Positions 55-12,447 of a DNA stretch of 64,000 bases are shown piece after piece. The first letter of the stretch is position 1. Every line of letters starts with the position of its first letter. A program made the translations under genes and the position numbers. This stretch comes from a virus. The stretch spans positions 1 to 64,000 of IMG/VR virus record IMGVR_UViG_3300000117_000011; one strand, 5' to 3'. A model generated the notes under the pieces. That model was not told where the DNA came from, did not search any database, and was given only the letters and a program-made list of their open reading frames with translations.

Positions 55-804
55 TTAGAAGTCTAAGTTGTCCTCATCGTCCATGAGATCCTCAATGTCG
101 CCCATCATATCCTCGTCGCCATCCTCAGCCCAAGCTGAACCACCATCGTCACCAGGATTCAGTTCGTAACCGCTGAGCTCTAAAACTTCTTCTTCCTCAA
201 CCTCAAAGAACGCGTCAGCCTCTGGTACGTCAACGATCTTGTCGAGACTATGCGTTGGAACTGATGACCCGCCAACAGGAGCTTCATCATCTACGTTGCG
301 GGTCGTCGCGACCTCTTCAAGCTTCATCGCGTGGGGAGTCGAGTTAAGAGCCTCGATCTTGTCGTCTAGTAAATGGACTGGAACGTAGTGAAGCTGTTTA
401 GGATGATCGATAGTAGATCCAGCTGTTCGAACCTCGAAGGCCGCACAATTACTTCCATTCGCGACGCGAGGACCTGCGAAGCGAATCCAAGCGAAGCCGG
501 CTGTCTGAATCCAACCTGTGTATTCAGCTGCGTCATCGAATCCTTCGAGAGTCGGGATGATATCATCAACTGCGACCTTAACCCATTTCGCTCCTCGACC
601 TGAGAAACGAGCCTTCACCTCGCTACGCCAATCATTGACGAGGCCAGTCTTCGCCGAACGACCACAAAGCGGTTTAACAAAAACACTGACCAGATCGTCA
701 AGATGACGTTTAAAGGCCGTCACTTTAGGCTCACCACCTTCTTCGATAAAGTTGTTGAACAGTCCCATGATCATATCATCATCATATTGTTTTTGGTTTT
801 CCAT
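55..804 (-). CDS. Acidic-tailed protein of unknown function, 249 aa
   Basis: I do not recognise this family. The N-terminal two thirds look globular, with several Trp residues and a basic-aromatic stretch around residues 70-120. The last ~60 residues are very acidic and end in DDEDNLDF. A terminal acidic tail with a final Phe is also found in single-stranded DNA-binding proteins, but I see no convincing OB-fold pattern, so SSB is only a possibility. The start is taken at 804, because AAGGAG sits five bases upstream. The in-frame ATG at 840 lies only about a dozen bases below the -10 box and has no ribosome site. Codon use is clearly GC-richer than in the genes right of 1700. It is driven by the promoter at 846-874 and is the largest gene of the leftward block. 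Confidence 0.75.
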   Translation of the reverse strand: MENQKQYDDDMIMGLFNNFIEEGGEPKVTAFKRHLDDLVSVFVKPLCGRSAKTGLVNDWRSEVKARFSGRGAKWVKVAVDDIIPTLEGFDDAAEYTGWIQTAGFAWIRFAGPRVANGSNCAAFEVRTAGSTIDHPKQLHYVPVHLLDDKIEALNSTPHAMKLEEVATTRNVDDEAPVGGSSVPTHSLDKIVDVPEADAFFEVEEEEVLELSGYELNPGDDGGSAWAEDGDEDMMGDIEDLMDDEDNLDF

Positions 805-1731: not shown

Positions 1732-1896
1732 ATGATATTATTAGAAAGTTACATAAGAAGTGTTTTATTCGAAAGAGGCAGGTTTAGTAGTGGGAGTGGA
1801 TTAGATGCTTATTTAATTGGTTTGGATTGTGAAGCCAAAGAACTTTTAGGATTAGTTAAAAAAATTAAAGAAAGTAATAGTGTGCTGAAAGTGTGA
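1732..1896 (+). CDS. Small protein with a tag-like N terminus, 54 aa
   Basis: A 54-residue protein beginning MILLESYIRSVLFE, followed by a Gly/Ser-rich turn and a helical tail. Two (L/I)-x-E sequences fall in the first 14 residues (ending E5 and E14), as in the other tagged proteins of this cluster. The start at 1732 is chosen over a TTG-like extension at 1714 because GAGG lies five bases upstream. The stop overlaps the next start in GTGTGA, so the two genes are translationally coupled. I do not recognise a family. A head-packaged internal peptide is the working guess. Confidence 0.55.
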   Translation: MILLESYIRSVLFERGRFSSGSGLDAYLIGLDCEAKELLGLVKKIKESNSVLKV

Positions 1897-2495
1897 ATAA
1901 TCGTTTTGGCTATTTACAAATCTTTGAAAAGAAAAAAGAAATAATTGATATTGTAAAAAAAGAATTAGGGGAAGAGTTTGTTGATGATTTAGGTATTGAG
2001 TTTAATGATGATTTGCCTGTTGTGGTGAGAATAATCCAGGGTGACAATACTTCTAAAGAAAAATCAGGCAAATTAAATTTACAAGATAACTTAGATTGGA
2101 TGGTTCATGATACTTGGCATTTAATTGTTGATAGAAGTTTTTGGATTAGGGAATTTTTAAGTAAAAGTGTGCATATTAGTCAAACGCTGGAATATTATAT
2201 TGATAATAGTATTTTAGTAAATGGTAGTCGTACTGATTTTGAAAAAGATTGTTTAATGTTTTTGAGAAATTATAATTTTACATCTGGAGTAGGTGAATTT
2301 GATTGTGTGCCAAGTTTAGCAGCTTTTTGTGTTATGAACAAAGAAGTAAAAAGTGTGCCTGTTGAGTTTAAAGGAAAAATGAAAAATTATGAAGACTTTA
2401 ATGAGTTTTACATTAGATTACATGTTATGAGTCCTTTATTGTGGAAGTCTATATTTAAGAGTTTAAAAGGTAAGTTGATTTTTAATCATTTTTAA
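1893..2495 (+). CDS. Unknown protein, 200 aa
   Basis: Starts at a GTG overlapping the previous stop. The protein is soluble-looking, with an acidic N-terminal third, a central aromatic stretch around residues 68-85 (DWMVHDTWHLIVDRSFW) and a basic C terminus. The His/Asp/Trp cluster could be a metal or ligand site, but I know no family with it. It lacks the tag seen in its neighbours, although it is coupled to the tagged 54-aa gene and may work with it. An intergenic repeat follows immediately. Confidence 0.6.
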   Translation: MNNRFGYLQIFEKKKEIIDIVKKELGEEFVDDLGIEFNDDLPVVVRIIQGDNTSKEKSGKLNLQDNLDWMVHDTWHLIVDRSFWIREFLSKSVHISQTLEYYIDNSILVNGSRTDFEKDCLMFLRNYNFTSGVGEFDCVPSLAAFCVMNKEVKSVPVEFKGKMKNYEDFNEFYIRLHVMSPLLWKSIFKSLKGKLIFNHF

Positions 2496-2505
2496 TGTAT
2501 TTTTT

Positions 2506-2546
2506 GACGAGCTGGGTGTCTCTTGAGTCACAGACGTAATAGGATA
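2506..2546 (+). repeat. Intergenic repeat R, copy 1
   Basis: Consensus across copies: GAGCTGGGTATCTCTAG, then YGTCACAGACGTAAYAGRATA. Copies 2 (3477-3517) and 3 (4775-4811) also lie just downstream of a gene end and upstream of a cluster gene. The conservation is much stronger than in the AT-rich DNA around it. Confidence 0.65.
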
Positions 2547-2555
2547 AACTTGAAC

Positions 2556-2588
2556 GCACAAATATATTATATTTTTTTATATTTGTGC
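2556..2588 (+). terminator. 11-bp stem hairpin after the 200-aa gene
   Basis: GCACAAATATA (2556-2566) and its exact complement (2578-2588) flank an 11-nt loop rich in T. It follows repeat R copy 1. It could be a terminator or an RNA-processing element; there is no T-run after the stem. The rest of 2496-2778 has leader repeat L copy 2 and no other gene. Confidence 0.45.
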
Positions 2589-2688
2589 ACAAATCTCTAA
2601 CTATCTCTAGAGAAACGGGTATTGAATGGGGCATTTGCATTGAATCCCCTAAATAGTTTCCAGTATGCAAAACAGTTTTGCTGAAATT

Positions 2689-2730
2689 GTGCAAAAACTT
2701 CGGGAGACTTTTTCGAAAACTTTTACATTT
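2689..2730 (+). repeat. Leader repeat L, copy 2
   Basis: Matches copy 1 through AAAAACTTCGGGAGA and GAAAACTTTT. It is followed by GATAAATAGATTTATA at 2736-2751, a close relative of the late promoter octamer, and then the start at 2779. Confidence 0.6.
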
Positions 2731-2778
2731 CCAGAGATAAATAGATTTATAGAATATTTTCAAAGTAAGGTTTTAAAT

Positions 2779-3471
2779 ATGAGAGTGACTGAGAGCAAGT
2801 TAAGAAGGATAATTCGCCAAGTAATAAAAGAAAGTGCTGGTGGATCATATAATTGGTATTCTGATTGGGTGGAAGCAACAGAAAAAATTAAAAAAAGAAG
2901 TTTATCAAAGATTTCATATGAATGTTTAAACGACTTTGGTATTTCTCGTGTTGATGCAAACAGTAACGACAGTATTGTATATAATTTAACTAAATTTCAA
3001 GATAGAGGAATTTCTGAGGGTGAATTAACATCTATCCTTTCTAACATATCAAGCGTACATGCTGCAGATGCTGATGAGATGTCAAGACTTCATTTAATGT
3101 TTACAGCGACTGTTGGGTTGCTAATAGAAAATGGAAAGATAAAAGTTAATTTTGGTGCTAAAGACAAAAATGCATTAAAACAAATGAAACCTGGAGAGAT
3201 GGCGATTGTTGCTGCGATTTCAACATCTGGAAGTGATAGGTTACAATCTTGTTTAATATATGAAAAGCCAAGCAATCATTCACTTCCTGACAGGAGTAAT
3301 TATTTTGTAATTGCACAAAATCCTCATAATCACAAGGTATTTGATAGAGAAGAGGCTGGTAATATAAGAAGGTATAACGAAAAACAGCAAGCTGATTATT
3401 TAGAGCGAAGGGAAAAAGCCGAGAAAAAAAGAAAAGACGAAGAGCTTCCTTGGTACGAATATACTAGATAA
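2779..3471 (+). CDS. Tagged protein (type A tag), 230 aa
   Basis: Begins MRVTESKLRRIIRQVIKES, nearly the same as the next gene (MRITESRLRRVIRQVISEN). The tag is a basic amphipathic helix that ends in I-K-E (residues 16-18), a T4 prohead-protease-like site. The body is of mixed composition, with one hydrophobic stretch around residues 107-117, and it ends in a highly charged coiled-coil-like tail. I recognise no enzyme family. The start at 2779 is chosen because AAGG precedes it and the upstream part of the frame is the repeated leader, not protein. A head-packaged protein ejected with the DNA is inferred from the tag only. Confidence 0.6.
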   Translation: MRVTESKLRRIIRQVIKESAGGSYNWYSDWVEATEKIKKRSLSKISYECLNDFGISRVDANSNDSIVYNLTKFQDRGISEGELTSILSNISSVHAADADEMSRLHLMFTATVGLLIENGKIKVNFGAKDKNALKQMKPGEMAIVAAISTSGSDRLQSCLIYEKPSNHSLPDRSNYFVIAQNPHNHKVFDREEAGNIRRYNEKQQADYLERREKAEKKRKDEELPWYEYTR

Positions 3472-3476
3472 TCTTT

Positions 3477-3517
3477 GTCGAGCTGGGCATCTCTAGCGTC
3501 ACAGACGTAACAGAATA
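3477..3517 (+). repeat. Intergenic repeat R, copy 2
   Basis: Shares GAGCTGGG, ATCTCTAG and GTCACAGACGTAA with copy 1, and starts a few bases after the stop of the 230-aa gene. 3472-3640 holds this repeat, leader repeat L copy 3 and a late promoter, with no other gene. Confidence 0.65.
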
Positions 3518-3552
3518 GTTTTAAGTTTGTGAAAGTATTTTACTGGGTTTGA

Positions 3553-3595
3553 TGAAAAAACTTCGGGAGAAATTTTGAAAACTTTTTACATTTTC
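3553..3595 (+). repeat. Leader repeat L, copy 3
   Basis: AAAAAACTTCGGGAGA through GAAAACTTTTTACATTTTC, followed by a perfect TATAAATA and the start of the second type A tagged gene. With copies 1 and 2 it defines a leader cassette. Confidence 0.6.
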
Positions 3596-3598
3596 AGT

Positions 3599-3606
3599 TA
3601 TAAATA
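3599..3606 (+). promoter_or_regulatory. T4-type late promoter TATAAATA
   Basis: A perfect octamer 35 bases upstream of the tagged gene at 3641. The equivalent site before the gene at 2779 reads GATAAATA (2736-2743). The repetition at the same place in two leaders supports a promoter function. Confidence 0.55.
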
Positions 3607-3640
3607 GATTTATATGATGTTTTTTAAAGAAAGATTAAAT

Positions 3641-3955
3641 ATGAGAATAACTGAGAGTAGATTGAGAAGAGTGATTCGTCAAGTGATTAGCGAAAACATG
3701 CCTTACGACGAGCCTGATGAGTATATGGGTTATGGGTCGTATGGTGAAGTTGAAGATAGTGATGTTAGTCTTAAAGAGCTAGAGAATATGCTAATGTCAC
3801 ATAGCTATGAAGCCCAAAGAGCTGATGGTTATGGTGAAGTAATGCATGCGAAAGGTGAGTATGAGCTTGGTGTTATGAGTAAAGACGAGTACATGAATTT
3901 GCTTAGGCCTTTTATAAATGACGTAATTGAGCAAAGTGGAAGATCTAGTTTTTAA
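3641..3955 (+). CDS. Tagged protein (type A tag), 104 aa
   Basis: Begins MRITESRLRRVIRQVISEN, with a potential cleavage site at I16-S17-E18. The rest is acidic and rich in Tyr, Gly and Met, with short repeated motifs such as DGYGEV and GSYGEVE. No enzyme motif is seen. The start at 3641 is preferred to the in-frame ATG at 3614, because tag homology with the gene at 2779 begins here. The gene is too small for an enzyme domain of a known class; an internal head protein or a DNA-associated cargo is plausible. Confidence 0.6.
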   Translation: MRITESRLRRVIRQVISENMPYDEPDEYMGYGSYGEVEDSDVSLKELENMLMSHSYEAQRADGYGEVMHAKGEYELGVMSKDEYMNLLRPFINDVIEQSGRSSF

Positions 3956-3977
3956 TTATTATAAAGTGTAAATACAA

Positions 3978-4703
3978 ATGAGAAGAAAAGACACAGCGCT
4001 ATTAATAGAAGAGTGGAAACAATTTAACAGTGAAGAAGAGTTAATTTATAACACAAAGCTACTGTTAGAAAAAAATGAAAATTTCGACAAGCAAGTTTTA
4101 AAAGAAAGTTTTGCAGGAAAAATGACTGATTGGTTGCAGTCTGGATTTGACATTGTAGGATTTATTCCCGGGATAGGCGAAGGATTTGATGCGATAAATG
4201 CTATAATATCTTTATCTCGAGGCAGACCTTTCGAAGCTTTGTGCTCAATTATATCATTATTCCCAGGTGTAGGTGATGTTATTGGTAAGGGCGGAAAATA
4301 TTTGGTTAAATATTTAGGACCAGAGTTAGATGATATTATTCAGGGTAAGATTTCAAGCCCAAGTGACTTAAGTGAAAACTCAATTTTAAAAAAAGAATTT
4401 CTTTTATTAGAGGCTAACAAAGGAGATGGAAAAATGTTTAAATTAGTTGTTAAAGCAATTTCAAAAACCAAAAACAGGTGGTTTCCTTTTATTAAAAACT
4501 TATTAAAAAGTGTAGAAAAAAACAAAGATTCAGTTGAACTGGTTAATGCAATAGAAGATAGTGAAATCAAGCTACCTAAAATTCCTGAAAAATTTAAGGA
4601 AAAAATTGGAGATATAATAAAGAAAAAAATAACAAACCCAAGTGACATTATGAAAAAAATTACTAATCTTGTTAATTTTATTGATAATTGTGCTAAAGAA
4701 TAA
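3978..4703 (+). CDS. Tagged protein with a polymorphic-toxin-like hydrophobic hairpin, 241 aa
   Basis: Begins MRRKDTALLIEEWKQF, a type B tag with L-I-E at residues 9-11. Residues ~55-112 hold a Gly-rich hydrophobic hairpin: GFDIVGFIPGIGEGFDAIN, then SLFPGVGDVIGKGGKY. This VGF-PG-GE ... PG-GD-GK pattern is typical of the pretoxin or transmembrane hairpin that precedes toxin domains in polymorphic toxins and colicin-like proteins. The C-terminal half is Lys-rich and helical with no toxin active site that I can recognise. A membrane-active ejected protein fits tag and hairpin together, but this is inference. There is no clear ribosome site before the start. Confidence 0.6.
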   Translation: MRRKDTALLIEEWKQFNSEEELIYNTKLLLEKNENFDKQVLKESFAGKMTDWLQSGFDIVGFIPGIGEGFDAINAIISLSRGRPFEALCSIISLFPGVGDVIGKGGKYLVKYLGPELDDIIQGKISSPSDLSENSILKKEFLLLEANKGDGKMFKLVVKAISKTKNRWFPFIKNLLKSVEKNKDSVELVNAIEDSEIKLPKIPEKFKEKIGDIIKKKITNPSDIMKKITNLVNFIDNCAKE

Positions 4704-4774
4704 AATATTTTTATACTTTTATTAATAAGTAGATTTATTTAATATCTATTAAAGAAAGTGACTTATAGAATTGG

Positions 4775-4811
4775 GTGTGCTGGGTATCTCTAGTGTCACG
4801 ACGTTTATATA
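4775..4811 (+). repeat. Intergenic repeat R, copy 3
   Basis: Shares GCTGGGTATCTCTAG and GTCAC-GACGT with copies 1 and 2 but has diverged at its 3' end. It lies between the hairpin-containing tagged gene and the gene at 4881. No other gene is seen in 4704-4880. Confidence 0.55.
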
Positions 4812-4812
4812 A

Positions 4813-4868
4813 GTTTAATCTTATGTGCGAAAATATATATATTATTAAGCGTATGAATAAGATTAAAC
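4813..4868 (+). promoter_or_regulatory. 12-bp inverted repeat upstream of the gene at 4881
   Basis: GTTTAATCTTAT (4813-4824) is perfectly complementary to ATAAGATTAAAC (4857-4868), separated by 32 bases that include an alternating AT run. The ribosome site (AGGGG) starts one or two bases after the right arm. As RNA, the stem would end right at the ribosome site. As DNA, it could be an operator. Confidence 0.5.
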
Positions 4869-4880
4869 AGGGGTCATAAT

Positions 4881-5663
4881 ATGAATCGTAAAGAATATAA
4901 ATTATTGGTTGAAGGATGGAATGGTTATTTGAACGAAATTTCATCTGATATAAGTGGTGTAACAAAGATTAAATCATTTGTTGATAGAATAGTTGCTTTA
5001 CGTGAAGAGACAGGGAAAGATATTAAGATTAGGGCACGATTAAACGGTACTGTACTAGAAGTTAATTTATTAAACTACTCAGTCTTAAGAATGAATGGTG
5101 TATTTTATCAAAAAGCTTGGCTTAATCATCTTGGAAATGTAGATAGAGAAGTAAAAGTTGATGGAACCCGCGATCCTTACGTAATAAAATATTCAGACGT
5201 AGGTGGAGGATTTGGGCCTTTACTTTATGAGATAGGATTAGAGATTGTTAGTTGTAACTTAGGTGGTGCATTAATGAGTGATAGAGGTGAAGTATCTGAG
5301 GAAGCTGAAAGTGTTTGGGATCGCTATCTTAGTCGATCTAAATCTGAGTTCAATCTTGAAGCTGTTAAGATGGATTTTTCTGATGAGTCTTGGGACGATG
5401 TAATGTATGATGCACCCTTTGCAGATATGTCAGACGAAGAGCAGGAAAGATTTAAACAGACACAAAAGTACACTCCAGATGATGCTTCTGATGACATATA
5501 TCAATATTCAGCTATTTTAAATTCAGCAAAAAAAGGTAATTTTGTTGATGGTGATTGGAAAAATTTTGAAAGCCCTTTAGCATATGCATATTATAAATTA
5601 GAGCCTGAAGTATTGACATACATTGAAAGTTTAGAAGAAAACATACTTGAGATAGACATTTAA
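4881..5663 (+). CDS. Tagged GNAT-like protein, paralogue of the gene at 9266, 260 aa
   Basis: Begins MNRKEYKLLVEGWNGYL (type B tag, L-V-E at residues 9-11). Around residues 110-150 it has GGGFGPLLYEIGLEI, then LMSDRGEVSEEAESVWDRYL. The gene at 9266 has the matching LGPLMYDLIIEF and DRFEISSEAQNLW. The Gly-rich turn followed by a helix resembles the acetyl-CoA-binding motif of GNAT acetyltransferases, and I recall phage proteins with this G-P-L-Y-D / DRG-VS signature; the enzymatic role is not proven. AGGGG upstream supports the start. The 3' end overlaps the convergent gene at 5660 by four bases. Confidence 0.6.
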   Translation: MNRKEYKLLVEGWNGYLNEISSDISGVTKIKSFVDRIVALREETGKDIKIRARLNGTVLEVNLLNYSVLRMNGVFYQKAWLNHLGNVDREVKVDGTRDPYVIKYSDVGGGFGPLLYEIGLEIVSCNLGGALMSDRGEVSEEAESVWDRYLSRSKSEFNLEAVKMDFSDESWDDVMYDAPFADMSDEEQERFKQTQKYTPDDASDDIYQYSAILNSAKKGNFVDGDWKNFESPLAYAYYKLEPEVLTYIESLEENILEIDI

Positions 5664-5806
5664 ACTTGTTTGTTTAGTTCGTTAACTGTTTTTAATATAT
5701 TCTGAATTTCATCTTCGTCAAAACATTCTCTATTAACAGCTTCTTGCAGTGTTCTAATTAAAATATTGATACATACTAATTGTTTGTGATTTATTAAATA
5801 ATTCAT
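5660..5806 (-). CDS. Small leftward gene, 48 aa
   Basis: A 48-codon frame (start MNYLINHKQLVCINILIRTL, end NILKTVNELNKQV) fills the space between two rightward genes. It predicts two short helices and an acidic middle. TATAAT reading leftward is at 5811-5816, very close to the start, so the message would be almost leaderless; no clear -35 is seen. The frame covers nearly the whole gap and its composition is coding-like. Function unknown. Confidence 0.5.
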   Translation of the reverse strand: MNYLINHKQLVCINILIRTLQEAVNRECFDEDEIQNILKTVNELNKQV

Positions 5807-5847
5807 GATAATTATAGTATGATAAGATTAGAAAGTTTACAATTAAC

Positions 5848-6105
5848 ATGAAAAAGACAGTAAAATATATTGCAATTTGCTTAACTTTCTTTTTAGTATC
5901 TGTAACTTCATGTTCAGAGAAAAAAGAAGACATTAAATTGCCTAGAACAGAGTGTGAGCAGATAAAAGACATTGTTACAGATTGTTTAGGGTTATATCGA
6001 GGTGCTTTAGGATATATAAAAAGTTGTGGTAATATATCTTTGTCTGAAATTAAATCTCTTGCAAGCTGTGAAGAAATATTTGAGTATATAGAAAACAAGG
6101 ATTAA
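5848..6105 (+). CDS. Predicted lipoprotein, 85 aa
   Basis: A basic start (MKKTVK) and a hydrophobic core (YIAICLTFFLVSV) are followed by the lipobox SVTSC, with the modified Cys at residue 22. That is a standard signal for a lipoprotein of a Gram-negative cell. The mature part is about 64 aa with four more Cys, which could form disulphides in the periplasm. An outer-membrane spanin subunit or a superinfection-exclusion lipoprotein are candidates. A spanin partner is not recognised beside it, and the muramidase at 7608 is on the other strand. It sits two bases before the next gene, so they are probably cotranscribed. Confidence 0.65.
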   Translation: MKKTVKYIAICLTFFLVSVTSCSEKKEDIKLPRTECEQIKDIVTDCLGLYRGALGYIKSCGNISLSEIKSLASCEEIFEYIENKD

Positions 6106-6107
6106 TA

Positions 6108-7589
6108 ATGAAAAGGCAAGAATATAAGTTGTTAGTAGAAAACTGGAATACTTTTTTAGTTAAAGAAGAAGAAAACTATAGTTTAATTGAGCAAAATATA
6201 AATAGCAATGCTGAGTTGTTGTATCTTTTAGAGTGGGGTGATAAACTTGAAAGATTAATCGTAGAAAGTGGTAACTATTTACTATTAGAAAGCTTACATG
6301 AATCAAATAGTTTTCTTGGAAAACTAATTAGATTAAAAGATAAAGTTAAAAGTTCATTTAAAGTTAGAAAAGATGCTATAGATGGTGAAGGCAACAAAGT
6401 CAAGTACGATGATAGCGAAGAAAGTCAAGTAAAACAAGAGTATACTAAGCTTGCTAAAGCAGGCATGTCAGCGATGGCTGCAATTAAAATTGCAACTATC
6501 ATTATGACAGCTTTGACTCCAAATAGCTTAGCAGCTGGCAGCGCGCCAAAGAATTTTCAAGAACTTCCTCCCGGTGTTCAACAACTAATTTCTGCTGAAA
6601 CGAAAATACCTGCTAAAGATTTGACTAGAATTCAATCTATGGAATTTAATGATTTTCATATAGGGCCTAGAACGCAAAATTTAGAGTTCGATGCAAAGAA
6701 AATAGGACCAAGTGAAGAGTTTAAAGCAGAATTAGCATTAGCTGCTGCGAAGAACGTTGCAGACGAACCAGAAAAAGTAAAAAAAGAAACAGCTTTAGAA
6801 CTTCTTGATAAGTTAGGTTTGAAAGGAGGCTTACCAGATGACTTTGAAAAAGGTTCTGCTGAAGGTCGTGCAACATCATTAGGTATAGATACATCAGGTC
6901 CAGTTACAGTATTGAATTCTTTTGAATCTTCAGAAGAAGCAGACATGGAACTAGCTAATAATATTGTCAAGCTCATGGCAAGTCAAACAGACTTAGGTAA
7001 AACAGATGTTAAGACATATGATTATTCACCGACACAAGATGAATTCAAGCAATCTTTAAATAATTTTAAAAGTCTAGACAAGTCAACTAAAATAAAGCTT
7101 TTGAGAGCTGCAAAACTTAAAGCAATAAAGGATTTAATGGAAAAGCATCCTAAGATTTTTGATAAAGCAAAGTCATGGACGAGTACTATTTGGGGATTTG
7201 AAGGAGAGGGTGCAGGAAAAGATGTTTCTGATATGGGACATCATAAAGCGGAAGGTTCTAAAGAAGCTAGAGTTTTGAGCTCGTTATATGGTGCTTTTAC
7301 TGATGATGACTTTGATTTTAGCGAAGTAAAAACATTTCAAGATCTTGAAAAAGTTATTGATGGTCATAATAGTTTTGCTCAAGTTACAGGTGACAACTCT
7401 CTTGCAGATGATGTAAAAGGATCAATTGTTACTTATGTATTGAAAAACTGTACAGACGCAGGTTTAGAAGATCTTGAATCTAATTTAAGTGGAGTAAAAC
7501 ACATTGATCAAGACTTAGAAAAGATTACAGATGCAGCAACTACTTTTAAAATTAGCGGAACTCAAGATTCTTATACAAAACTTAGGTAA
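6108..7589 (+). CDS. Large tagged protein, 493 aa
   Basis: Begins MKRQEYKLLVENWNTFLVK, the clearest type B tag (L-V-E, residues 9-11). A hydrophobic segment lies around residues 118-145 (MSAMAAIKIATIIMTAL, then an Ala/Ser-rich turn like a signal cleavage region). The long remainder is helical and charged, and I recognise no domain. The size, the tag and one membrane-capable segment fit an ejected internal protein that could insert in the host envelope. The gene meets the leftward muramidase tail to tail, with small palindromes AGTTTAAACT (7592-7601) and GTTTATAAAC between and within the ends. Confidence 0.6.
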   Translation: MKRQEYKLLVENWNTFLVKEEENYSLIEQNINSNAELLYLLEWGDKLERLIVESGNYLLLESLHESNSFLGKLIRLKDKVKSSFKVRKDAIDGEGNKVKYDDSEESQVKQEYTKLAKAGMSAMAAIKIATIIMTALTPNSLAAGSAPKNFQELPPGVQQLISAETKIPAKDLTRIQSMEFNDFHIGPRTQNLEFDAKKIGPSEEFKAELALAAAKNVADEPEKVKKETALELLDKLGLKGGLPDDFEKGSAEGRATSLGIDTSGPVTVLNSFESSEEADMELANNIVKLMASQTDLGKTDVKTYDYSPTQDEFKQSLNNFKSLDKSTKIKLLRAAKLKAIKDLMEKHPKIFDKAKSWTSTIWGFEGEGAGKDVSDMGHHKAEGSKEARVLSSLYGAFTDDDFDFSEVKTFQDLEKVIDGHNSFAQVTGDNSLADDVKGSIVTYVLKNCTDAGLEDLESNLSGVKHIDQDLEKITDAATTFKISGTQDSYTKLR

Positions 7590-7607
7590 TAAGTTTAAAC
7601 TCAAATA

Positions 7608-8900
7608 CTAGACAAATAAATGTTTATAAACTCTTTTAAGAGATTCATTGCTGCTTTTATCTTGAAAATTTTTCGGTGTAATAGATATTCTTATTTCTTC
7701 AATGCCTGTTTTAATTAGTTCATAATTTTTTTGAGGTCTGCCGCTTCTTTCTAAATCACTATGATATTTTGTTTTACCTCTTACTGTACCATCATCATTA
7801 AAGTTGTACAATATTTCTTCAGCAGCAATTTCAAATAAATTAATAGCAACTTCAACTTCTTCTTCGCTTAAGTCTTCGCTGTCTAAGACTATAGCTGCGT
7901 GACGCATTGTTTCGTTAAAGTTTTTAAACTTATCTAAAAATCCCGGGCCCATATTGTAAGCCATGTCATAAAAAGCTTGCTTTGTATCTTCAGGAAGTAC
8001 TTTAAAATATTTTACTTTGTTCATTTCATCAATTACGTGAGCAACTTCTTTATCTGCAGCGAGACCTGCTTGATCTAAGTTTATAGGATCAGTACTTGAT
8101 GCATTATCATCTTGAATTGAATAAGTAGTAAAAAACTTTTCACGCCATCCCGGGAGTGTTTTTTCTATCCACTCGGCTTTACTTACACCTTTTTTACTTT
8201 GTTCTTTGAAATCTTTTTCTAATTCTTCATGTTCACCTTCATCAAGATCTGAAGTAGAAAAAGCTTTTGTTCCATGACCAACACTCCATTGATGGTGGTC
8301 TAGATATGGTAGTCCTCTAAAACCTTCGTGACTAAGAATACTTTGTTTAACTTTTTCTTTGTCAATACTTGAGTCGTATTCTATAGAGAATTTAAGATCT
8401 TCACTTTCACTTTTGTTTTTAATTTCGCTAAATGTTTTTTCAATTTTGCTTTTTTCTTCTGGATTTTGTTTGATTAGAGCATCTTTAACTGCATCTTCAG
8501 TTTTTTCTTGTTGAGCAGAGTACGTTTGACCACTACCTTGACTGCTCCCAGGAAATTTAACATGATCAGGTATACAGTTCCAAAGAGCTACAATCATTCC
8601 AAGCGTTACCAATCCTCTTGACGCATAACTTTTAAGACTATTGTACTTTGGTTCTATTGCAGTTAATGCTTTAAATTCTTTGCTTTGTTCGTCAGGTGTA
8701 TCTTTATCTACATAAACATTTTCTTTTCCTACAGGTCTTAAGCCAGTCTGAACATATTTTTCAGGGTCAGATCCTGGTGGATGAGAAGAAACTGGTGTTA
8801 AATTAACATACCTTTTTGAGCTGTCGTCTTCTATTCCTGATTCTATTAAGAATTTTTTTATTAAATAGTGATTTTTTTTATTTTCTGCTATAATAATCAT
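7608..8900 (-). CDS. T4-lysozyme-like muramidase (GH24) with tag and membrane segment, 430 aa
   Basis: It would cut the peptidoglycan glycan chain. The catalytic region is at residues ~187-400: SHEGFRGLPYLD gives Glu192 and Asp201, with Ser206 where T4 lysozyme has Thr26. YDMAYNMGPGFLDKFKNF matches the family's second conserved block, and a distal SGRPQKNYELI follows. T4 lysozyme is only 164 aa, so most of this protein is extra. The N terminus has I-A-E and FLIE (residue 20) tag-like sites, a charged linker and a hydrophobic stretch at ~95-110 (GLVTLGMIVALW). A free endolysin normally lacks this; an internal virion muramidase or a membrane-tethered one is more likely. AAAGG lies six bases before the start. 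Confidence 0.75.
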   Translation of the reverse strand: MIIIAENKKNHYLIKKFLIESGIEDDSSKRYVNLTPVSSHPPGSDPEKYVQTGLRPVGKENVYVDKDTPDEQSKEFKALTAIEPKYNSLKSYASRGLVTLGMIVALWNCIPDHVKFPGSSQGSGQTYSAQQEKTEDAVKDALIKQNPEEKSKIEKTFSEIKNKSESEDLKFSIEYDSSIDKEKVKQSILSHEGFRGLPYLDHHQWSVGHGTKAFSTSDLDEGEHEELEKDFKEQSKKGVSKAEWIEKTLPGWREKFFTTYSIQDDNASSTDPINLDQAGLAADKEVAHVIDEMNKVKYFKVLPEDTKQAFYDMAYNMGPGFLDKFKNFNETMRHAAIVLDSEDLSEEEVEVAINLFEIAAEEILYNFNDDGTVRGKTKYHSDLERSGRPQKNYELIKTGIEEIRISITPKNFQDKSSNESLKRVYKHLFV

Positions 8901-8945
8901 ACAATACCTTTGATTTTATATTTAAGTATAATTATGAGAGACAAA

Positions 8946-9239
8946 ATGAATAATGACGATTTATATATAATTCAGTCAGATGTAACTGGAATGATAAAAA
9001 TAGGTAGATCTAAAAACCCAGAAAAAAGACTGAAACAGCTTCAAACTGGTAATCCAAATAAGTTAAAATTAATAGCTTCTTTTAAAGGAGAAGGATGGAA
9101 AGAAAAGAATATTCATGAAAGATTAAAAAGATATCGTCTTGAAGGTGAATGGTTTAGTTACGATTGCATAGGAAGCATTCCTGATAATCATTATGAACAA
9201 ATATCTTTTGGCTCATTTGATGACTGGTGGGATAATTAA
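8946..9239 (+). CDS. T5orf172 (GIY-YIG-like) domain protein, 97 aa
   Basis: A single small domain: YIIQSDVTGMIKIGRSKNP, then RLKQLQTGNPNKLKL, IHERLKRYRLEGEWFSY. This is the pattern of the T5orf172/MUG113 group of the GIY-YIG nuclease superfamily. A GIY-YIG-type fold suggests DNA cleavage or DNA binding. It is short, with no separate DNA-recognition region, so it may be a stand-alone nuclease or a remnant of a mobile one. The start at 8946 is taken because GAGAG precedes it at five bases. The upstream ATG at 8934 directly follows a TATAAT (8927-8932), which may be its promoter. Confidence 0.75.
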   Translation: MNNDDLYIIQSDVTGMIKIGRSKNPEKRLKQLQTGNPNKLKLIASFKGEGWKEKNIHERLKRYRLEGEWFSYDCIGSIPDNHYEQISFGSFDDWWDN

Positions 9240-9265
9240 TTTAATAGATACTTAAAGGGAAAAAA

Positions 9266-9955
9266 ATGAATACAAAAGATTATTTTTATCTGTTTAATGA
9301 GTGGAAACGTTTTTTAGTTAAAGAAGACAACAATATCTTAAATATCGATAGTCAAATTCAAAAAGCAATAAAAAAAACAAGTGAGCTTAATAGACAAAAA
9401 TTAAAAATAGACATCCTAAAAGAAGGAAACGAGTATACTTTAATCGCAAACTTTGTAGACGAAAGCAATGAAAATCATATTATAGAGGAAATAGCAGATA
9501 TATCATTTAGAAAATTCCCGTACAGTCAAGTAAAAGATCAGAAAGGAATTGAAAGAAATGCTTATATAATCGAGCGCACTAAAATTGTCAAGTATGACTT
9601 AGGGCCTTTAATGTATGATTTAATAATTGAATTTGTCTCAGGTGACAATTCTGTATTGTGTCCTGATAGATTTGAAATTTCTAGTGAGGCTCAAAACTTA
9701 TGGTTAAATTATTTTAATAAAAGACCCGAAGTGAAAACTGTCCAGCTTGATATCGAAAATGATAGTTTAGATGACAAAGAATTTCCAAACTTAACGCCAG
9801 ATTGGCGAGATGATTTTTATCAAAATGTATCAATAGAAGATAAAGGTAAAGAGTGGTTTAACAGTCCTTTTTCAAAAGGATACTACAAAGATAATAGTTA
9901 CGTTATTAATCAATTAAATCTTAATAATGATATCTTTATTTTAAATATAAAATAA
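9266..9955 (+). CDS. GNAT-like protein, paralogue of the gene at 4881, 229 aa
   Basis: Same architecture as the 260-aa protein at 4881: a tag-like start (MNTKDYFYLFNEWKRFLVKE), then a body with YDLGPLMYDLIIEF and PDRFEISSEAQNLWLNYF near residues 110-155, and an acidic C terminus ending in a hydrophobic strand. The tag keeps the aromatic pattern but lacks an (L/I)-x-E site, so processing may differ. An acyltransferase-like fold is a guess from the Gly-rich turn. AAAGGG precedes the start. Its separation from the paralogue by 3.6 kb of unrelated genes suggests an old duplication. Confidence 0.6.
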   Translation: MNTKDYFYLFNEWKRFLVKEDNNILNIDSQIQKAIKKTSELNRQKLKIDILKEGNEYTLIANFVDESNENHIIEEIADISFRKFPYSQVKDQKGIERNAYIIERTKIVKYDLGPLMYDLIIEFVSGDNSVLCPDRFEISSEAQNLWLNYFNKRPEVKTVQLDIENDSLDDKEFPNLTPDWRDDFYQNVSIEDKGKEWFNSPFSKGYYKDNSYVINQLNLNNDIFILNIK

Positions 9956-9972: not shown

Positions 9973-10896
9973 ATGAAAGATTTTTTTCTGGAAGAAATTA
10001 AAAAAAGTGGTGGATATTCTTGTTACCATGCACATTTTGACAAAGCTTATTTGATAACTCCTGAAATATTTGAAAAATGCCAATCATCGCTTCAGGAAAA
10101 ATGGAAGCTGTACAGAGGATTTAAAATAAATTACACAAAAGAAACACTTTTAAACAGAATGTCAAAATGTATAGTTAACATGATTAATCAGGACGTGAAA
10201 TATGTCAGAACTTTTGTTGATGCTGATAGTATTGTTGAACAAAAATGTATTGATGCTGCTTTGTGTTTAAAAGAAATTTATAGAGACGAGATAAAAATAG
10301 ATATAGCAATACAACCTCTTGAAGGGTTAGAAAAAACAAAAAGTAAAGAAAACTTTCTAGAAGCTTGCATGAAATCTGATTTTATTGGCGGTCTTCCAGA
10401 CCGAGATTCTTCACCAGATAATCATTTAGATTTGTTGTTTGGTTTAGCAAAAAGTCTTAATAAACCTGTTGACATACACGTTGGTCAAAACAATATCCCG
10501 TCTGAAAAAGAAACAGAGCTTGTGTTGGACAAAATAGAAGAACACAAACTTAAACAAAAAGTTAGTTTAGTTCACTGTATTTCACTTTCTTGTCAAGATG
10601 AGAGCTATATAAGACACCAGGCAAATCGTATGCAGCAATTAAACGTTGATGTGATAGTTTGTCCAAGCGCAGCAATAAGTATGAAGCAGAATCATTCTGT
10701 ATACTCTCCTGTTCATAATTCAATAGCACCTGTCAAGATACTTTTAGAAGAAGGTGTCAATGTTAAATTAGGTATAGACAACATTGAAGATTTATTTATG
10801 CCTTTAGTAGACGGTGACATGTGGTTTGAAACAAGATTGTTAATGGAGGCAACAAGAATTTATGATTTGAAAAAAATACTAAATATAGTAACCTAG
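9973..10896 (+). CDS. Amidohydrolase-superfamily protein, cytosine-deaminase-like, 307 aa
   Basis: A TIM-barrel metal hydrolase. The first metal motif is HAHFDK (His19, His21), followed later by DIHVGQ (third His), VHCISLS (fourth His) and the metal Asp in KLGIDNIEDLF, with PLVDGDMW after it. The HxHxDK start and the GIDN-D-F-P-GDGDM ending are characteristic of the cytosine deaminase/ammelide hydrolase branch. Cellular cytosine deaminases are around 420 aa; this one lacks the N-terminal beta sandwich and much of the C terminus. A role in pyrimidine or modified-base metabolism during infection is plausible; the substrate cannot be read from sequence. AAGG precedes the start. Its stop overlaps a convergent stop by four bases. 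Confidence 0.75.
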   Translation: MKDFFLEEIKKSGGYSCYHAHFDKAYLITPEIFEKCQSSLQEKWKLYRGFKINYTKETLLNRMSKCIVNMINQDVKYVRTFVDADSIVEQKCIDAALCLKEIYRDEIKIDIAIQPLEGLEKTKSKENFLEACMKSDFIGGLPDRDSSPDNHLDLLFGLAKSLNKPVDIHVGQNNIPSEKETELVLDKIEEHKLKQKVSLVHCISLSCQDESYIRHQANRMQQLNVDVIVCPSAAISMKQNHSVYSPVHNSIAPVKILLEEGVNVKLGIDNIEDLFMPLVDGDMWFETRLLMEATRIYDLKKILNIVT

Positions 10897-11369: not shown

Positions 11370-12248
11370 TTAAGATCCTATTAGTATGTTATACAGAAAT
11401 ATATATATATTTTGCAGTAAAGGATACACCCAGCCAATATAATGTTTTAAATCTATTCCTGTCATAGTGTAAAAAATTGCATTTCCATGGAAAGTATTAG
11501 CAGTCTTGATAAGACCCCAAACTAAATAACAAAATATCAAAAAGGAAAGTCTATATATAAACCACCAAAACAATTCATTTAGCGTTTTATTTCTCAATCT
11601 TGTTTTAATTTTTTTTGCGCCACCAATTCGCTTTGCTTTTTCGCCATCTGGAGGTGGTTGTAATTGTGATTCTATTAAACCAATAGCATAAATAGATTCA
11701 GGTTCAGCAACACCTTTAAATTTATATAATCCTACAAGCGCTGACAGGGCTTTTTTAGGTATGTATGGACTCCGGTGCCCATATTTTTTATATTGTATAA
11801 ACGCAGATTTTGAGAGCAATATTTGTTCTTCTCCACATATAGACATAGTTCTTGCTGCAATATTTTTTCCAATTCCTTCAAGGTTAATTCTTTTCCCGCC
11901 AGCTCTTACGATATGTGCTTCAGACTTAACAATAAGCATTTTATCCCAATGTATTCCTACTCTACTACGAAAAGGAAACTTCTTTTTTCGAAGAAACTTT
12001 TTATAGTCAAAAGCAAAACCAATTGAATCTGAAACTTTTGAAAACATCATTAAATGACCATCAGAAGCATCTATTAATTGGCCGTTGTGTCTTGCAATAA
12101 AATTCATGACTGCTTTATCATGAATTCCGAACCACATTGCTGATATTCTTGAGCCATTTTTCTGCACAAACTTAGTACTACCAATTATATCTGTCAAGAC
12201 AATTGCAATATGAGATTCAATCATATTCTCAGGTAAATAATTACTCAT
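11370..12248 (-). CDS. Membrane-anchored class III nucleotide cyclase, 292 aa
   Basis: Class III cyclases make cyclic mononucleotides such as cAMP or cGMP from NTPs. The catalytic domain covers about residues 12-190. The metal-binding Asp residues are in TDIIGST (D20) and ASDGHLMMF (D63). The strand RSRVGIH is conserved. GIGKNIAARTM supplies the transition-state Asn129 and Arg133, followed by EEQILLSKSAF. The base-specifying Lys before the second metal Asp is not present (LIDASDG), so the nucleotide made cannot be predicted. Two hydrophobic helices follow at ~220-246 and ~265-290, an unusual C-terminal anchor. The start at ATG 12248 is preferred to an upstream GTG at 12260. It lies in an operon with a Cys-rich protein and a membrane protein. 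Confidence 0.8.
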   Translation of the reverse strand: MSNYLPENMIESHIAIVLTDIIGSTKFVQKNGSRISAMWFGIHDKAVMNFIARHNGQLIDASDGHLMMFSKVSDSIGFAFDYKKFLRKKKFPFRSRVGIHWDKMLIVKSEAHIVRAGGKRINLEGIGKNIAARTMSICGEEQILLSKSAFIQYKKYGHRSPYIPKKALSALVGLYKFKGVAEPESIYAIGLIESQLQPPPDGEKAKRIGGAKKIKTRLRNKTLNELFWWFIYRLSFLIFCYLVWGLIKTANTFHGNAIFYTMTGIDLKHYIGWVYPLLQNIYIFLYNILIGS

Positions 12249-12447
12249 TTTTACACACACATTTATCTGATATATTTAGACATTCATAACAAATGCAATC
12301 AGGCCATTTACATTCTAAAGCTATAATGTTACATTTACAATTATATTTAATACATTCACAATCTTTGTTGTCCAGATTACATAAAGGACAAATGTGGTCT
12401 TCTGGAATTGGCTTTGTAAAGTCTCTTATATTTTCTTGAGAAGACAT
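12241..12447 (-). CDS. Cysteine-rich, probably zinc-binding protein, 68 aa
   Basis: Residues ~20 to the end contain many Cys in short spacings: CPLCNLDNKDCECIKYNC, then CKC, CKWPDCICYEC, CVC. This would bind two or more zinc ions or form a disulphide-rich knot; there is no signal peptide, so zinc is more likely. The ATG at 12447 is chosen because AAGGA lies six bases upstream; the ATG at 12453 is too close to it. It is the first gene of the leftward operon and its stop overlaps the cyclase start by eight bases. A regulatory or scaffold role beside the cyclase is speculation. Confidence 0.6.
   Translation of the reverse strand: MSSQENIRDFTKPIPEDHICPLCNLDNKDCECIKYNCKCNIIALECKWPDCICYECLNISDKCVCKNE

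Follow-up and report, generated by a model that had tools for sequence, protein, structure and literature searches.

In phage T4, the first ten residues of the internal protein IPIII direct packaging, and a 10-residue tag is sufficient (PMC9026906). The protease gp21 cuts after (L/I)xE and the internal proteins are ejected (PMC9026906; PMC9391042); one of them, IPI, counteracts a host restriction system (PMC9026906; PMC9391042). IPII and IPIII share the start MKTYQEFIAE. Three criteria for a T4-type capsid-targeting sequence (CTS) are applied below: a short N-terminal peptide common to otherwise unrelated proteins, an S77 (gp21) prohead protease in the same genome, and (L/I)xE where that peptide ends. 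The window analysed here consists of bases 1-64000 of the 95,164-base virus record IMGVR_UViG_3300000117_000011. An earlier note had proposed that genes between 1.7 and 10 kb carry two types of recurrent, capsid-targeting-like start (A and B), with (L/I)-x-E within the first 20 or so residues and unrelated bodies downstream, and that they form a cassette of cargo for the head. The genes and starts that it listed are all present as written, and are collected in Table 1.

Table 1. Features of the cassette and its flanks (E, leave-genome-out E value; assignments as cargo are inferred)
Feature	Position	Strand	Start	Remarks
Conserved left flank of the variable cassette in relatives	55..804	-		Homologues in L085, L086, L090 and L091
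54-aa gene, type C-like start	1732..1896	+	MILLESYIRSVLFERG	Weak assignment
Putative cargo gene, type A tag (residues 1-18)	2779..3471	+	MRVTESKLRRIIRQVIKES	230 aa, body unknown; candidate cut after IKE-18; E 7.7e-6; homologue with type A tag in L085
Putative cargo gene, type A tag	3641..3955	+	MRITESRLRRVIRQVISEN	104 aa; candidate cut after ISE-18; E 3.2e-6; homologue with type A tag in L085
Putative cargo gene, type B tag (looser)	3978..4703	+	MRRKDTALLIEEWKQF	241 aa, glycine-rich hydrophobic middle; E 0.011
Putative cargo gene, type B tag	4881..5663	+	MNRKEYKLLVEGWNGYLNE	Body family GPLLYE/D; E 2.1e-6
Putative cargo gene, type B tag	6108..7589	+	MKRQEYKLLVENWNTFLVK	493 aa; E 2.9e-4
Muramidase-like gene	7608..8900	-	MIIIAENKKNHYLIKKF	T4-lysozyme fold, putative hydrophobic helix; conserved family N-terminus MIIIAENKKNHY
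Conserved right-flank gene adjoining the muramidase in relatives	8934..9239	+		
Putative cargo gene, degenerate type B tag (looser) without (L/I)xE	9266..9955	+	MNTKDYFYLFNEWKRFL	Paralogue of the 4881 body; E 0.38

The shared N-terminal tags are real and larger in extent than first reported. Profiles of tags A and B were searched against 1.13 million residues of stop-to-stop ORFs, drawn from 16 related contigs. Every unique match with E<1e-3 (74 for A and 28 for B) lay at an ORF N-terminus, nearly always on the start codon. In 863 kb of P-SSP7-like (T7-like) podovirus contigs the same profiles had no match below E 0.1, and 688 kb of random viral contigs gave none below 1e-3. When profiles trained on other contigs only were run on the 569 ORFs of this contig, the A starts were recovered at E = 3e-6 and 8e-6 and the B starts at 2e-6, 3e-4, 0.011 and 0.38. 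A further B-type start (E 0.023) was found outside the window, at 94.9 kb, in an acidic protein truncated where the contig ends. At the DNA level, a pattern for MKIT..LR.LI matched 76 stretches of viral contigs, almost all of them gene starts; a longer version of the pattern matched 15, and a rearranged form of this longer version none. A tblastn search of annotated phages with the tag consensus yielded, apart from one weak match, nothing but an uncultured phage of 484 kb. The sharing of the tag is far beyond chance, whereas the (L/I)xE motif alone is weak (see below), and the first T4 criterion, a short N-terminal peptide common to otherwise unrelated proteins, is met. The assignment of the 54-aa gene, also proposed as a tag bearer, is less secure: it was not recovered by the profile once left out of the training set, and it represents a third, weakly supported type (C).

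In contigs closely related at the 4881 gene or at the muramidase (L084-L091), shared flanking genes enclose mostly different genes, many of which carry tag A, B or C. The putative cargo genes occupy a hypervariable cassette, where bodies are swapped and one tag can take the place of another. A predicted structure model of the 4881 product has an N-terminal helix (residues 3-19) followed by a low-confidence linker (residues 20-29); no confident structural match was found for the fold of its body. Relatives of the 4881 gene, the 6108 gene and the muramidase were sought among annotated phages and none were found. The glycine-rich hydrophobic stretch in the body of the 3978 product (DIVGFIPGIGEGFDAINAIISLSRGRPFEALCSIISLFPGVGDVIGKGG) is membrane-inserting by appearance. 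Three untagged or neighbouring genes may also be recorded: a small, untagged lipoprotein-like gene (5848-6105), conserved in the variable cassettes of relatives; an amidohydrolase-like gene (9973-10896), for which the match to Pfam Amidohydro_1 (E 7e-5) was below the cut-off; and, at 11370-12260 on the minus strand, what appears to be a class III nucleotide cyclase with a C-terminal membrane segment, conserved beside the cassette in relatives. A T4-late promoter-like sequence, TATAAATA, was considered upstream of the cargo genes and rejected, as it was found 15 times in the window against 12.9 expected.

The statement that the downstream bodies are unrelated fails for the 4881 and 9266 genes: their bodies show homology, with 26% identity over 243 aa (E 8e-13). 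Homology between bodies is also what reveals the exchange of tags. Eight body clusters contain homologous bodies with two or three different tag types. In the 4881 body family, tag A is found in six members, tag B in seven and tag C in two, with cross-tag E values down to 1e-30. The clearest swap concerns the DPKVGTGKKPKGSGRRLYTDENP body, which carries tag A in contig L065 and tag C in contig L092 and is 88% identical over 94 aa; the two proteins start with MYLTRRNLRSLILESISEILSEA and MNILLESYIKEILLNETKK, respectively, each running into DPKVG, so that identity begins 1-3 residues past the last (L/I)xE (LSE / LNE). Homologous bodies bear different tags, and the tags are therefore exchangeable modules. 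They are of unlike character, A being basic (an amphipathic helix), B acidic and aromatic, and C hydrophobic; the simplest reading of the swaps is that the different tags perform one job.

As to the cleavage motif, (L/I)xE is present in the first 20 residues of 103/105 A tags and 36/39 B tags, and the earlier statement on its occurrence in the cassette held, including the exception at 9266. Taken alone, the motif is weak evidence: it occurs in 15% of 20-residue stretches that begin at internal Met residues, in under half of shuffled tags, and in 23 of the 68 untagged genes here in the 20-residue stretch from Met. The counts are, moreover, not independent, in that the tags share ancestry. In 100/105 A tags (L/I)xE lies at about residues 12-22, the position shifting between residue 14 and residues 15-22 yet the site being kept; tags without a site at position 14 have a later site in 50/55 cases versus 16/50 (p 2e-10). 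The residue that follows is mostly S, N, A or G. The third T4 criterion, a terminal (L/I)xE in the peptide, is fulfilled, again with the exception of 9266. At the nucleotide level, the tag peptide is conserved and silent sites are random in three genomes (G002, G008 and G010), and in four others (G004, G014, G017 and G022) silent-site similarity among the tags exceeds expectation.

The same contig carries, beyond the window, a T4-like head cluster formed by a portal-sized gene, a gp21-like protease gene (Peptidase_S77; 84451-85053, about 84.5 kb; E 6e-31), several unknown genes and a gp23-like capsid gene (89476-91344; E 7e-79). Two checks suggested in the earlier note thus held: a gp21-like protease is encoded in the genome, which also fulfils the second T4 criterion, and more proteins with the same starts are found in the contig and its relatives. 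The unknown genes of the cluster may code for core proteins, as inferred from their position. Beside the capsid gene, at 91498-94869 on the minus strand of the contig, lies a gene for a 1123-aa protein (start MTKYSLKQVFYKNSLLLNEMA) with a counterpart at L003:12502-15870; it is conserved in L014/L123 and is possibly a large head cargo. In another contig (L026:18386 region), a 78-aa gene downstream of the capsid gene has a type A-like start and, further in, a type A-like motif (VTPEYLNRLIKEEY) present in two almost identical copies.

Each of the tags resembles a head-module protein, tag B only weakly. The tags were compared with 79 families of untagged proteins by profile-profile comparison (hhalign). 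Tag A matches the N-termini of two head-cluster families (85.4 and 85.9 kb; E 5e-5 and 3e-4), the genes of which are located between the protease and the scaffold/capsid genes; the only better matches were families that bear such tags themselves. Among 3047 proteins, the family without tags that tag C matches best belongs to the 86.9-kb gene of the head cluster (E 7e-4); the match falls on an internal stretch, e.g., LKQYIKEMLLFE, that is present in 10/11 clustered entries. For tag B, the capsid propeptide ranks first of the 79 families, but weakly (E 0.012, probability 3.7%), and HMMER did not find tag B in the N-termini of capsid and protease. A regular expression, LxExW, matches mostly protease and capsid among untagged N-termini, but was designed after seeing them; that LxExW is common to tag B and to the protease and capsid N-termini, and in part also to T4 gp21 and gp23, is a post hoc observation.

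In 3.83 Mb of related and tag-bearing contigs we counted 428 tagged proteins (373 A, 48 B and 7 C) in 305 body clusters. This set was partly selected for carrying the tag pattern, and the figures are totals, not rates. Two genomes, G014 and G017, and the fragment G034 have more than 20 tagged proteins each. The bodies are mostly without a known family; few of 141 representative tagged proteins matched Pfam, the families being RNase_T, NUDIX, HAD, Fic, PAP2, YkuD, a peptidoglycan-binding domain and AAA_33.

The muramidase-like gene had also been proposed to have a tag-like start, and this part of the claim failed: its start is conserved within its own family and matches neither tag A nor tag B, nor is it of any other tag type. 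The T4-lysozyme fold rests on a Foldseek match (TM about 0.75 of target, E about 2e-3) obtained with a medium-confidence model, and Pfam and PDB sequence searches gave no match. The gene adjoins the cassette, and its status as cargo is not shown. The family has a conserved C-terminal end, NESLKxVYKHLFV, which is possibly a second processing or docking signal.

We consider it likely that the tags are T4-type capsid-targeting propeptides. The sequence basis for this reading consists of tags confined to N-termini, tag swaps, a protease and a gp23-like capsid, likeness to head proteins and (L/I)xE at the tag end. Location in the virion, cleavage and ejection are not shown. During prohead assembly, the 14-20 residue N-terminal tag, probably an amphipathic helix, would mimic part of a head-assembly protein and thereby dock its own protein in the scaffold core; the S77 protease (gp21-like) would then cut after the (L/I)xE at the tag end, freeing the mature protein within the head, from which it would be ejected together with the DNA. 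Docking, cleavage, ejection and action in the host are all inferred, the last two by analogy. The cargo reading of the earlier note is supported, because a protease, more tagged proteins, tag swaps on homologous bodies and a resemblance to head proteins were all found, although the support comes from sequence only, with no virion proteomics or new N-termini. Co-occurrence with S77 across contigs does not count as support here, since S77 is frequent in large contigs taken at random: among contigs of at least 50 kb, it was found in 8/27 tag-bearing and 7/13 random contigs, and it is present in 11/14 tag contigs of at least 100 kb. In S77-negative tag contigs, gp23 and portal families were sought and not found, and these contigs are treated as fragments; one 135-kb contig with about 30 tagged proteins, in which no recognisable protease or capsid gene was found, is probably also a fragment.

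Of the alternatives, the one that survives best, while still unlikely, is that the tags direct proteins to the virion or one of its sub-compartments without being cut off, serving as docking helices that keep accessory proteins attached to the capsid or core. Resemblance to head proteins requires no cleavage, and 9266 retains tag B without (L/I)xE. However, (L/I)xE is kept in nearly all tags despite its shifting position, the protease is present in the genome, and in the clearest swap body homology begins just past the (L/I)xE site. Slightly less likely again is that the tags act within the infected cell, as a membrane-binding basic helix or a chaperone/degradation or sorting signal, and not in the head. 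Type A is indeed a basic amphipathic helix, and many large phages bear it on dozens of genes; yet tags of unlike character (A, B and C) substitute for one another on homologous bodies, and each resembles head-cluster genes, B only weakly. That the 5' ends are shared because they aid gene shuffling, as recombination or RNA-level regulatory sequences, with no role for the peptide, can be all but dismissed: a hypervariable cassette with common 5' ends and the excess silent-site similarity in four genomes would fit, but in G002, G008 and G010 amino acids are conserved while silent third bases are random, and homologous bodies bear different tags.

A bolder version of the capsid-targeting reading, for and against which the evidence seems to us evenly balanced, is that large T4-like environmental phages load cargo in modular fashion through three or more docking signals used in parallel, each of them a copy taken from a different component of the head core or capsid. 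A swappable set of up to dozens of injected effectors could then be recognised straight from the sequence. Should the capsid-targeting reading hold, injected phage proteins would be predictable from their start tags across uncultured large phages, and would likely be first-strike host-takeover and anti-defence factors, as is T4 IPI; foreign proteins could be packed into phage heads by means of new short signals, and the docking of cargo on the prohead core would become testable.

No published mention of five tag variants was found in the literature searched. Compared with the inner-head ejection proteins of phiKZ and SPN3US, the present system is alike in its (here inferred) trimming by a prohead protease and later ejection, and in the many cargo proteins (PMC5694885); however, the propeptides of those phages are mostly over 100 residues long, whereas here they are of 14-20 residues and common to unrelated proteins. 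The closest likeness is to the CTS of T4 IPI, IPII, IPIII and Alt, in the short N-terminal peptide ending at (L/I)xE ahead of unrelated bodies (PMC9026906), and to the T4 internal-protein system in the S77 protease and gp23-type capsid. The general pattern aside, MKTYQEFIAE differs by eye from tags A, B and C. LLIETW of T4 gp21 and ELLNKWKPLLEG of gp23 resemble LLVExWxxxLxE of tag B, and their counterparts in the relatives are LITEW and RLVEKWSRTGLL; the likeness is short and statistically weak, and gp21 and gp23 are structural proteins, unlike the tagged cargo here. Unlike T4, the phages described here have several tag types per genome, swapped between homologous bodies, and up to 20-30 cargo genes per genome, with tags that resemble head-module proteins. 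The principle is already known from T4; the scale, the several tags per genome and the swapping of tags appear to be new.
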